Origin: Actinidia chinensis
Lineage: Eukaryota; Streptophyta; Magnoliopsida; Ericales; Actinidiaceae
Direction: 5' to 3'
Assembly: GCA_009663005.1 (NCBI GenBank)
Contig: VIGQ01002343.1
Span: 1 to 37,998 of the forward strand
Length of the DNA: 37,998 nt
Made by a program: the position numbers and the translations under genes
Notes under the pieces: model-generated
The model's input: only the letters and a program-made list of their open reading frames with translations
Told to the model about the DNA's origin: nothing
The model's database searches: none
Shown: one piece after another, positions 1-37,998 of the stretch
Numbering within the stretch: the stretch's first letter is position 1
Layout of the letters: each line of letters opens with the position of its first letter

Positions 1-1639
1 TTCAATCATTATGGACCTATCGACTCCAATCATCCGCTTTTCTCCCCTTATCGACGTTCGCGTACCGGGTGAACTTCAACGGTACAAAAAAACGAAAAAT
101 GGTTAAAACTTAATCGTTCGTACTGCATCCGATGTATAAAAGTAAATGCGCATTGGAATTTTTTAGAAAAGCATAAGTGTAAAAAGCGACAAAAAGTTGC
201 CAAAAAAAGGACCTTCCCGGTGGGTCACCCATCCTGACATTGCACCCGTCCATGCACGCTTAACTTCAAAGCTCAAAGGGATCCTCATTTTGTTACCATT
301 ATGATCCGAAGGTATGTTGGTTCCCCTTTGCATTACTGTACCTACCGACCCAATAATCCCTTTCTCCCTATCGACCGTAGCGTTAACGGGTGAACTTCAA
401 CGGTTAAAACTAATCGTTTATTGCCTGCATCCGTTAAGTAATAAAAATTAATGCGCAAAGGGAAATTTTTTAGAAAGCATAAGTTTTAAAAATGACAAAA
501 AAGTATAAAAGGGTGGCTCCGGTGGTCACCAATCCTGACATTGCACCCGTCCATGCACGCTTAACTTCGACGTTCCAAACGGGCGATCCATACATTGTAC
601 CCTTATGATCGCGAAGGTATTCTGGTTTCAACTTTTCTACTCATATGGAACCTATCGACCTTCTAATCATCCGCTTTTCTCCCATCGAACCGTCGCGTAC
701 CGGGGAACTTCACGGTGAAAACTATCGTTTCCTTGCCGCAAGCCGTACGTAATAAAAATAAATGCGCAAAGGGAATATTTTAGAAAGCATAAGTGTTAAA
801 AATTGACAAAAAGGTTGCAAAAAGAGGACTTCCCGGTGGGTCACCCATCCTGACATTGCACCCGTCCATGCGCGCTTAACTTCGAAGTTCAAACGGGATC
901 CATACATTTTTACCATTATGATCCCGAAGGTATGTTGGTTCACCTTTTCAATTCATATGGACCTACCGACCCCAATCATCCAATTTCTCCCTATCGAACC
1001 GTAGCGTAACGGGTGGACTTCAACGGGTTAAAACTAATCGTTTCATTGCCTGCATCCGTAAGTAATAAAGATAAATGCGCAAAGGGAATTTTTTATAAAG
1101 AATAAGTGTTAAAAATCGACAAAAAAGGAGTAAAAAGGGGACTTCCCGGTGGGTCACCCATCCTGACATTGCACCCGTCCATGCACGCTTAACTTCGACG
1201 TTCAAATGGGATCCATACATTTGTACCATTATGATCGCGAAGGTATGTTGGTTCAACTTTTCTATTCATATGGACCTATCGACCTCCAATCATCCGCTTT
1301 CTCCCTATCGAACCGTAGCATAACGGGTGAACGTCAACAGGTTAAAACTAATCGTTTCATTGCCTGCATCCGTAAGTAATAAAAATAAATGCGCATAGGG
1401 AATTTTTTAGAAAGCATAAGTGTTAAAAATCGACAAAAAGGTTGCAAAAAGAGGACTTCCCGGTGGGTCACCCATCCTGACATTGCCCCGTCCATGCACG
1501 CTAAAACTTGCGTTCAAACGGGATCCATAAATTTGTACAATATGATCGCGAAGGTCTATGGGTTCACCTTTTCACTAATACGACCTATCCGACCCCCAAT
1601 CATCCGCTTTCTCCTATCAAAACCGCCCGCAAAAACGGG

Positions 1640-1800
1640 TTGTAAAGTTCAAGGATTAATATAATATTATATTTGCCCTGCATCTATAAGTAATAAAAAT
1701 AAATTCGCATAATAGAATTTGTTTTATAAATGATATTAAGTGTTTAAACTCGTGTCAAAAAGGGTGCAAATAAAGAGATTTTTTCGGTGGGCTCACCCAT
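1640..1800 (-). repeat. Subtype E spacer, first copy
   Basis: The spacer has AAGGATTAATATAATATTAT then CATCTATAAGTAAT and TTTTATAAATGAT where the standard monomer has ACGGGTTAAAACTAATCG and TTTTTTAGAAAGCAT. The next core is preceded by TTTTTTCGGTGGGCTCACCC. A second copy of this combination starts near 2930, so the changes are inherited. Confidence 0.7.
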
Positions 1801-2929
1801 CCTCAATTGCACCGTCCACGCTACGCTTACACTTCGCAAGTTCACACGGGATCATACCTTTGTTACCATATGATCGCGCGGGTATGTTGGTTCACCTTTT
1901 CAATTCATATGGACCTATCGACCTCCAATCATCCGCTTTCTCCCTATCGACCGTAGCGTAACGAGTGTAACTTCAACTGGTTAAAACTAATCGTTTCATT
2001 GCCTGATCCGTAAGTAATCAAAGTAAATGCGCATAGGAAATTTATTTTTAGAAAGGCTAAATAAGTGTTAAAATCGACAAAATGTTTGGCAAAAAAAAAA
2101 AAGGACTTACCGGTGGGTCCCCATCCTGACATTTGCACCCTTCCTGCACTCTTAACTTCAAAGCTTCAAACGGTATCCATGACATTTGTACCATTATGAT
2201 CCCGAAGGGTTATGTTGGTTCACCTTTCATCAAGTTCATATGTACCTACCTGACCCCCAATCATCCACTTTCGTCATGTTTGAAACCGTAAGCGTAACAG
2301 GTGAACTTCAACGGGTTAACTAATCGTTCAAATTGCCTTGCAATCTGTAAGTAATAAAAATAAATGCGCAAAGGGAATTTTTTAGAAAGCATAAGTGTAA
2401 AAATCGACAAAAAGGGTGTAAAAAGGGGACTTCCCGTGTGGTCCCACCCATCCTGACTTGCAACTATCTTGCCGCTTAACTTCGAAATTCAAACGGGATT
2501 CTATACATTGTACCATTATATCGCGAAGGTCTGTTGGTTCAACTTTTCTATTCATATGAACCTATCGACCTACATCATCCGCTTTCTCCCTTCATAGACC
2601 CGTAGCGTAAGGGTGAACTTCACCGGGTTAAAACTAATCGTTTCATTGCCGTGCATCGTAAGTAATAAACATAATGCGCATAGGGATTTTTTAGAAAGCA
2701 TAAGTGTTAAAAAAATCGACAAAAAGGTTGGCAAAAGCGGACTTTCCGGTGTGTCACTCCACCTGACATTGCAAGCAGCACCCGTCCATGCACGCTAAAC
2801 TTTGAAGTTCAAACGGAATCCATACATTTGTAGCCATAGATCGCGAGGTAATATTGGTTCAGCTTTCAATTCATAAGATCTATCCGACCCCCTAATCATC
2901 CGTCTTTTCTCCCTATCAAACCGTAGCAA

Positions 2930-35358: not shown

Positions 35359-37511
35359 ATAAAAATAAATGCTGCATAGGACATTTTTTAGAAGCATAAG
35401 TGATAAAATCGACAACAAGGTTCAAAAATAGGACTTCCCGGTGGGTCACCCATCCTGACATTGCACCCGTCCATTCCGCTTTAAAACTTCGAAGTTCAAC
35501 GGGTCCATACATTTGTACCATTATGATCCCAAAGGTATGTTGGTTCAACTTTTCTATTCATCGTACGTATCGACCTCCAATCATCCCACTTTCGTCCCTA
35601 TCGACTGTACGAATAGCGTGAACCTCAACGGTGAAAACTAATCGGTTCATTGCCTGCATCCGATATGAAAAATGCGCAAACGAAATTTTTTAGAAAGCAT
35701 AAGTGTTAAAAATTCGAAAAAGGTGTAAAAAGGGGACTTCCCGGTGGGTCACCTATCCCTTGACATTGCACCCGTCCATGCGCGTTACTTCGAAGTTCAA
35801 ACGGGATTCATACATTTAGATCAATTACAATCGGCAAGGTATGTTGGTTCAAGCTTTTCTATTCATATGGACCTATCGACCATAATCATCCGCTTTCTCT
35901 TATCAACCGTTCAAGCGTGAACGGGTGAAGTTCAACGGGTTAAAACTAATCGTTTCATTGCCTGCCCATAACTAATAAAAATAAATGCGCATATGAAATT
36001 TTTTTAGAAGCAAAGTGTTAAAAATCGACCCCCAAAAAAAAAAGGTTGGCAAAAGAGGACTTCCCTGATGTCACCCAGCCATGCACGCGTAACTTCGAAG
36101 TTCAAACGGGATCCATACATTTGTACCATTATTACCCGAAGGTATGTTGGTTGCACCTTTCAATTCATATGTACCTATCGCCCCCCAATTCCTTCCCTTT
36201 CTCCTATCAGAACCGTAGCGTGAAGGATTAACTTCAACGGGTTAAAACTAATCGTTCTTGCCTGCATCCTTAATAATAAAAATAAATGCGTATAGGGTAT
36301 ATTTGAGAAAGATAAGTGTTTAAAAATCGACAAAAAAGTTTTCAACAGGGACTTCCCGGCGGTCACACCATCCTGACATTGCACCCGTGTCATGAACGTT
36401 CTTAACTTCGAAGTTCAAACGGGATCCATACCTTTGTAACCATTATGAGCCCGAAGGTTGTTGGTTCCCTTTTCAATTCATGTACCTATCGACCCCCAAT
36501 CATCCACTTTCTCCCTACGACCGTAGCGTCCTCTTGAACTCAACGGTTAAAACTAAGTCGTTTCATTGCCTGCATCCGTAATAATAAAACTAATGTCGCA
36601 AACGGAAGTTTTTATAAAGCCATAGTGTTAAAATCACAAAAAGGTGTAAAAAGGGGACTTCCCGGTGGGTCACCCATCGTGACATTGCCACCCGTCCATG
36701 CACGTTAACTTGAATTTCAAACGGGATTCCTACATTTGTAACAATATGATCGCTAAGGTATGTTGTGTTTCAGCTTTCTATTCATATGGACCTATCGACC
36801 TATAATCAATCCGCTTTCTCCCAATCGAACCGTAGCGTCACGGGTAAAGTTCAACGGGTTAAAACTAATCGTTCCGCTGCCTGCTCCAAAAGTATAAAAA
36901 TAAAGCGCATAGGGAATTTTTTAGAAAGCATAAGTGTCTAAATCGACAAAAAGGTTGAAAACGAGGACTTCCGTGGTCCCATCCTGACCTTTGCACCGTC
37001 CATGCACAGCTTTAACGTCGAATTCAAACGTGATCCATACGATTTGTACCATTATGAGCCCACGGTATGTTGGTTCACCTTTCAATTCATATGTCCCTAT
37101 CGACCCCCAATCATCCACTTTCTCCCTATCGAACCGAGCGCATAGCGGAACTTCAACGGTTAAAACTAATCGTTCATTGCTGCATCCGTAAGTCTCAAAT
37201 AAAGCGCAAAGTGAATTTTTTTAGAAGCATTCAGTGTTAAAAATCGACAAAACGGTGTAAAAAGGGGACTTCCCGTGGGTTCCCATCATGACATTGCCCC
37301 CTCCATGCACGCTTAACTTCGAAGTTTGAAAAGGATCCCATACATTTGTACCATTATTTATCGGCGAAGGTATGTTGGTTCGACTTTTCTATTCATATTG
37401 ACCAATCCCCCTTAATCCATCCGCTATTCTCCATATCGACCGCAGCGTAACGGTGAACTTCAACGTATTTAAAACTAATGGTTTTCATTGCCTGCTGCCG
37501 TAAATATAAAA

Positions 37512-37998
37512 TAAATGCGTATAGGGTATATTTTAGAAAGGATAAGTGTTAAAAATCGACAAAAAAGTTGTAAAAAGGGGACTTCCAAGCAGGTCACCCA
37601 TCCTGACATTGCACCCGTGCATGCCCGCTTAACTTTGAAGTTCAAACGAGATCTATACATTTGTACCAATATGATCGCGAAGGTATGTTGGTTCACCTTT
37701 TCAATTCATATGGACCTATCGACCTCCAAGTGTTAAAAATCGACAAAAAGGGTGTAAAAAGGGGACTTCCCGGTGGGTCACCCATCCTGACATTGTAGCC
37801 GTCCATGCACGCTTAACTTCAAAGTACAAACAGGATCAATACATTTGTACCATTATGATCGCGAAGGTATGTTGGTTCAACTTTTCTATTCATATGGACC
37901 TATCGACCTCCAATCATCCGTTTTCTCCCTATCGAACCGTAGCGTAACGGGTGAAATTTAATGTGTTAAAACTAATCGTTTCATTACCTCCATCTGTA
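37512..37998 (-). repeat. Right copy of the distant repeated block, cut by the window end
   Basis: Carries the same ordered variants as 34868-35358 and is cleaner. It ends at the window edge in CATCTGTA, so the higher-order repeat probably continues beyond. Offsets among the marks are constant within the indel noise. Confidence 0.8.
37593..37776 (-). repeat. Short monomer S16, 184 bp
   Basis: Clean unit, junction GACCTCCAAGTG at 37721-37732. Partner of S15 nine monomers (2645 bp) later. Confidence 0.88.

Follow-up and report, generated by a model that had tools for sequence, protein, structure and literature searches.

A satellite of the Actinidia chinensis genome composed of a decayed 5S gene unit, and its probable relation to a dimeric 5S family

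Introduction

What is the repeat that fills contig VIGQ01002343.1 of Actinidia chinensis, and where did it come from? The window analyzed here, positions 1..37998, is the whole of this contig (C600), taken from an assembly of 638,422,350 bases in 1499 contigs, and it consists of a single head-to-tail tandem array of a 314-bp satellite unit. The original prediction regarded the monomer as a degenerate plant 5S ribosomal DNA (rDNA) unit that had escaped constraint and spread as a satellite. We find that the unit carries a whole but decayed 5S gene with its spacer, as judged by alignment, and we put at about 0.85 the probability that the satellite arose from a duplicated 5S unit, via a divergent ("beta") copy related to a 499-bp dimer in the same genome, and then spread as arrays.

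Results

The repeat unit is a decayed 5S gene with its spacer

Using a seed monomer and nhmmer, we found 129 satellite pieces in the window, every one on the minus strand and extending to within a few bases of both contig ends (array at 1..37998, minus strand). The earlier estimate of at least 126 copies agrees with this count of pieces, although only 107 of them span at least 250 consensus positions. Tandem Repeats Finder (TRF) gave a period of 313-314 in most rows, and at 1142..1454 on the minus strand lies a complete, indel-free monomer with 97.4% identity to the consensus of the array.

The Rfam 5S model RF00001, the check that had been proposed for this array, returned eight window matches above its gathering score, and at E<=1 it returned 30, all 5S and all on the minus strand. 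The best alignments cover model positions 1-120. The highest-scoring region (10205..10322, minus strand, model positions 1-120) reached 48.7 bits with E 2.6e-7; another, at 9212..9329 on the minus strand, reached 42.6 bits, and six further minus-strand regions exceeded the cut-off (11529-11646, 5035-5152, 9711-9828, 7600-7718, 7915-8032 and 31782-31901). Against a plant 5S sequence entered by hand, which also serves below as the outgroup, the satellite consensus gave a local score of 76, compared with at most 25 in 500 dinucleotide shuffles and 19 for the opposite strand. Homology to the 5S gene thus exceeds chance both by the gathering score and by the shuffle control. Within this alignment 33 of 118 consensus sites differ, so that identity is 72%, close to the roughly 73% obtained earlier by hand, and the near-identity expected of functional 5S rDNA is not seen against the hand-entered reference. 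The 33 mismatches all fall outside boxes A and C, which together comprise 25 sites (hypergeometric P 8e-5, assuming that mismatches fall evenly).

Flanking features of a 5S gene remain as well. A TATA-like motif, TATGAA, begins at -28 relative to the 5S part, and a T-run lies after the 5S part; plant 5S spacers are described as having a T5 stop at their start and, near -27, TATA-like motifs that include TTATGA (PMC7822202).

Motif counts point to the minus strand as well. On that strand, exact and within-one-edit occurrences numbered 47 and 100 for GTTAAGCGTGC, 51 and 94 for GATGGGTGACC, 49 and 99 for GCGATCATA, and 18 and 71 for GGGAAGTCCTC, which is rivalled among monomers by a GGGAAGTCCCC form; GGGAAGTCC, counted alongside GGGAAGTCCTC, gave 54 and 91. 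The plus strand held no exact copy of any of these and, within one edit, 0, 7, 8, 0 and 4, respectively. GGATCCC occurred 41 times exactly and 114 times within one edit on the minus strand, and 7 and 92 times on the plus strand; it says little on its own because the latter count is also high. The statement that every monomer contains the 5S motifs is therefore sound as to order and spacing, but too strong for exact motifs. The layout box A - 18 nt - box C, a pattern taken from PMC7215508, was matched exactly 22 times in the window, always on the minus strand, and never in 100 shuffles; one intact example of this 5S internal promoter layout is at 1152..1194 (minus strand). Taken together, these data demonstrate, as far as sequence goes, that each 314-bp monomer contains an entire, though decayed, 5S gene together with a spacer on the minus strand. 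Although its consensus retains intact boxes A and C, the unit is not likely to yield a usable 5S rRNA.

Sister arrays elsewhere in the genome

A 29-mer of the satellite, allowing at most two mismatches, occurs 236 times in the genome, 43 of them within the window, compared with none for a reversed control; C2, C18, C19, C25, C26, C600, C1175 and C1401 are among the contigs of the matches listed. Sister arrays therefore lie on at least five chromosome-size contigs (C2, C18, C19, C25 and C26) and also on unplaced contigs; at least eleven contigs of the assembly measure 15.6-27.1 Mb. Nine 10-kb stretches (L041-L049) hold 18 to 37 pieces each, mostly ~314 bp apart, with 1101 unknown bases in L042 and 5000 in L046. 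With 129 pieces in 38 kb and these nine further stretches, the unit forms the long head-to-tail arrays expected of a 5S-derived satellite. The exact 29-mer was absent from the viral and prokaryote genome contigs searched, and the plasmid and phage records searched held no similar DNA.

Consensuses built for ten arrays, from 13 to 85 monomers each out of 18 to 129 pieces, are all 313-314 bp long, including those from C2, C18, C19, C25, C26 and C1175. They reveal chromosome-specific families, with 110 of 314 columns varying between arrays. The C19 family (L046) is nearest to 5S, with 93 of 113 positions in the best local alignment. One C18 array (L044, C18:4276000-4285999) has pieces on both strands, 31 minus and 6 plus, and seems to contain an inversion.

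A dimeric 5S family in the same genome

Run on the assembly, RF00001 gave 47 scored matches (of 3371 candidates), with scores up to 100.3 bits. The genome contains a family of 499-bp units, 65 in 12 loci with 1 to 11 per locus (L009-L020, on contigs C5, C8, C11, C21, C22, C25, C28, C279 and C960; for example, L010 at C21:2200000-2208000). Each unit consists, in order, of a fuller 5S copy, spacer 1, a 5S copy without its 5' half (the truncated copy) and spacer 2 with a TATA motif, an arrangement found at the 12 loci; the TATA-like motif of the unit lies at -30. The two spacers agree in 111 of 139 columns, and the 5S of the unit consensus is identical to the hand-entered plant 5S in 110 of 116.

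This family looks decayed as well. The 43-nt core of its consensus has no assembly match at one mismatch or fewer. The canonical plant box-to-box 43-mer, likewise entered by hand, has only three at three mismatches or fewer, the best with two and none intact. Compared with plant 5S over the whole gene, no assembly sequence among the 40 of 563 candidates scored exceeded 93%. A working 5S rDNA array thus seems either to be missing from the assembly or to be unlike the sequences searched.

The 3' half of the satellite 5S goes with the truncated copy of the dimer

Spacer 2 can be aligned over its entire length with the satellite spacer, the two agreeing in 143 of 224 columns (64%). The best local score is 52, and 1000 base-shuffled versions of the host spacer gave no more than 35; against part of spacer 1 the satellite spacer scores 39, with shuffles at 27 or below. 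The spacer of the C19 array agrees with spacer 2 in 152 of 221 columns (69%), with a local score of 103 obtained without its own shuffle run. The homology to a host 5S spacer expected of a 5S-derived satellite is thus present with respect to the 499-bp family.

Which of the two host copies is the closer relative was addressed by outgroup comparison over 73 sites of the 5S 3' half. Six sites are derived in both the satellite and the truncated copy, one in the satellite and the fuller copy, and none in the two host copies alone; five more have changed in both the satellite and the truncated copy, but differently, and at three further sites the satellite and both host copies all depart from the outgroup. 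A generous chance model predicts 1.25 shared derived sites in place of six (P 2.6e-4). All ten array consensuses have four of the six, and the other two occur in nine. When 5S sites that split the host copies are counted without the outgroup, the window consensus sides with the truncated copy at eight, with the fuller copy at four and with neither at three. By this comparison the 3' half of the satellite 5S groups with the truncated copy and not with the fuller one.

These results bear on the alternative that the satellite came straight from an ordinary monomeric ~310-bp 5S rDNA unit, the 499-bp family being a separate offshoot and the shared changes parallel decay. Such an origin would account for a satellite that holds a whole 5S and a whole spacer, ~310 bp is an ordinary length for a plant 5S unit, and neither spacer of the 499-bp unit is favored over the other in agreement with the satellite. 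The six identical derived changes held in common with the truncated copy argue the other way and make direct descent from an ordinary gene unit improbable; we regard this alternative as unlikely. The original view that a 5S unit escaped constraint and spread is supported, both results named beforehand as support having been obtained: a significant covariance-model hit on the minus strand and spacer similarity to 5S-type units of this genome. It needs the amendment that direct descent of the satellite from an ordinary gene unit is probably wrong.

We favor instead a sequence of events in which a 5S unit would have been duplicated and one copy, beta, freed from the constraint on 5S RNA. One beta copy would then have been truncated and retained in the 499-bp dimer. 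The seed of the satellite could have been a beta unit of full length; alternatively, crossing over could have combined the fuller copy's 5' half with the 3' half of beta, giving the same ~310-bp period. Unequal crossing over or rolling circles may have multiplied this seed head to tail and several chromosomes would have been seeded, with later local deletions producing shorter units; today the satellite appears to behave as ordinary tandem satellite DNA.

Several points weigh against this origin through a beta copy. At spacer sites the satellite agrees six times with each host spacer and seven times with neither. Intact plant-type 5S was not found in the assembly, and the spacer similarity is therefore to a decayed family and not to proven rDNA. 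A maximum-likelihood tree of 28 consensuses, from the 9 of 12 loci with at least three units and from the ten arrays, recovered satellites, fuller copies and truncated copies as three separate groups (ultrafast bootstrap 100, 100 and 94); being unrooted with three groups, it cannot show which two are sisters, and this question falls to the outgroup count, which comprises only 73 sites and uses the hand-entered 5S. With the 5' half missing from the truncated copy, there is no way to separate a crossover origin from one by a full-length beta unit.

The alternative that had to be taken most seriously was a tandem array of the retrotransposon Cassandra, in which the 314-bp unit would be a long terminal repeat (LTR), with or without an internal domain, bearing a 5S-like promoter. 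Cassandra LTRs do bear 5S sequence with box A, 18 nt and box C, and arrays of at least 12 repeats have been published (PMC7215508); their length of ~200-400 bp is compatible with 314 (PMC10853983). The box spacing in the satellite is likewise 18 nt, which does not discriminate because plant 5S has the same layout. The Cassandra primer site TGGTATCAGAGC had no exact match in the window, with five at three mismatches or fewer compared with a shuffle mean of 17.6, and none in the 21 fetched loci, where only two matches occurred at two substitutions or fewer, both in L013. A direct LTR-LTR junction (TG...CA) should create CATG, and the circular consensus has a single CATG, located within the 5S part; this observation addresses the direct LTR-LTR form only. 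Of the three features of this miniature retrotransposon that were examined, only the box layout was found, with neither primer site nor TG...CA junction. Since, in addition, the 5S match covers the whole gene and the spacer matches that of a 5S unit, a Cassandra array is not supported and appears very improbable.

Sequence noise in the window

Indel-free and indel-dense stretches alternate along C600. Twenty indel-free tracts exceed 200 bp, compared with 1.8 expected, the longest at 9409..9852 (no strand assigned), and substitutions amount to 5.3% within such tracts and 10.1% outside. Part of the raggedness and apparent decay of the window is probably unpolished long-read sequence, and differences in single monomers are therefore not to be over-read. 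That these are working 5S rDNA arrays, degenerate only through sequencing errors, is nevertheless barely credible despite the one-base indel noise and the intact consensus boxes A and C, because a consensus averages out random errors and yet 33 of its 118 sites do not match plant 5S, the clean C2 array (L041; TRF period 314, 89% matches, 0% indels) is likewise diverged from 5S, and 110 of 314 columns vary between the array consensuses.

Conservation of the promoter boxes

Between loci of the 499-bp family, boxes A and C of the truncated copy are the least variable of all placements of this two-box pattern along the unit, ranking 1 of 499 (0.01, compared with a mean of 0.068), and those of the fuller copy rank 354 of 499 (0.08), a figure that partly represents fixed differences between loci. 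This test covered 8 of the 12 loci, those with at least five units each, and 64 of the 65 units were aligned. The units had been picked via the fuller copy, a choice that disfavors the conservation result for the truncated copy. Per unit, the truncated copy had fewer box mismatches in 40 cases, an equal number in 15 and more in 9 of 64, with means of 1.86 for the truncated and 3.11 for the fuller copy (Wilcoxon P 5.9e-5, units within a locus not being independent). Locus L016 goes in the opposite direction. Within loci the contrast is small (0.068 for truncated and 0.089 for fuller, mean 0.101), with ranks of 34 of 499 and 144 of 499 that are weak or adverse as signs of selection.

For the satellite, boxes A and C rank 5 of 313 between arrays, with 5 of 43 columns variable compared with a mean of 15; these figures are biased because the arrays were found via a 29-mer that covers box A. 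The 499-bp test is free of this bias since its loci were chosen through the fuller copy. A spacer-only search, with 40 of 294 candidates scored, met solely the already-known contigs C2, C18, C19, C26 and C1401; this reduces the bias but does not eliminate it. Within arrays the ranks are weak, 38 of 313 for all satellites and 23 of 313 for the two C2 arrays. In single arrays, the rotations of the 43-nt window as low as that observed ranged from 14 of 312 (L048) to 249 of 313 (L047), and in L044, L045 and L047 the box window varies at least as much as the array does on average. Selection on the boxes is no more than possible. The fuller proposal, that boxes A and C of beta type were kept by selection while the RNA was lost, so that the arrays persist as putative binding platforms for TFIIIA and RNA polymerase III (Pol III), is one we consider doubtful.

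Short units and higher-order structure

Seventeen listed C600 pieces start late in the unit and are short or irregular. Thirteen of them have a leader of 33-44 nt, which fits one spacer deletion of ~130 bp giving 184-bp units; an example at 10222..10405 (minus strand) retains the 5S part and lacks approximately consensus positions 37-166 in the spacer. Two have a leader of 20-21 nt and belong to a second, 163-bp deletion type with its junction at GTCGAT, as at 6177..6339 (minus strand), where the leader is 21 nt, the GTCGAT repeat marks the join and TRF gives a period of 163 at 6150-6481. The remaining two have irregular leaders of 71 and 87 nt: at 4419-4489 and 33199-33285, 71 and 87 bases between pieces match neither the monomer consensus nor a short-unit leader.

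Around 8-12 kb of the window full units alternate with short ones, and the 498-bp TRF period at 8877-10837 results from pairs of 314- and 184-bp units. The length of this pair nearly equals that of the 499-bp unit. The deletions are unlike, lying in the spacer in the satellite and removing the promoter and 5S 5' half in the 499-bp family; the near-equal lengths may be due to chance or to a length preference. Among 125 monomers, variant sharing rose above the average-pair value of 0.047 for monomers six apart (0.098) and twelve apart (0.079), a hint of six-unit higher order in parts of the C600 array. tRNA genes were looked for in the window and none was found.

Discussion

The locus offers a clear case of a housekeeping RNA gene turned into satellite DNA. 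Because a dimeric relative is present in the same genome, some of the steps leading from the gene unit to the satellite can be reconstructed. In plants of this kind, 5S-derived arrays may inflate both 5S copy counts and the results of fluorescence in situ hybridization with 5S probes. If the boxes were bound or transcribed, satellite DNA would be using a Pol III promoter beyond the making of 5S rRNA.

The literature, as far as it was covered, describes neither the present satellite nor a dimeric 5S family whose second copy is truncated, which is weak evidence of novelty. A large plant 5S satellite with higher-order structure had been expected to be notable; a plant precedent exists. PLsatB, of the Plantago lagopus B chromosome (Kumke et al. 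2016), is a 325-bp satellite described as 5S-rDNA-like but not 5S (PMC6410184). As far as that description allows a comparison, PLsatB is B-enriched, whereas the present satellite is found on several chromosome-size and unplaced contigs, beside a dimeric 5S family that includes a truncated copy. In sugarcane, a repeat called 5S-derived is over 99% similar to rDNA (PMC8902033) and seems to be 5S itself.

Among animals, PcP190 of frogs combines a conserved 5S-like part of ~120 bp, 69.4% similar to 5S, with a variable part, and recombination with 5S rDNA has been proposed for it; it differs from the present satellite in its animal host and its ~190-bp unit, its origin is presumably independent, and transcription has been found for it (PMC11675491). 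A tandem repeat from 5S rDNA is reported as centromeric in the fish Hoplias malabaricus (Martins et al. 2006, cited in PMC12692304). Cassandra arrays resemble the satellite in being tandem in plants with a 5S internal promoter and equal box spacing (PMC7215508, PMC10853983); the satellite is unlike them in having no primer site and no direct LTR junction, together with a full-length 5S match and a 5S-type spacer. Satellites derived from 5S are thus already known in a plant and in frogs, and it is the dimeric relative and its conserved promoter boxes that look new.

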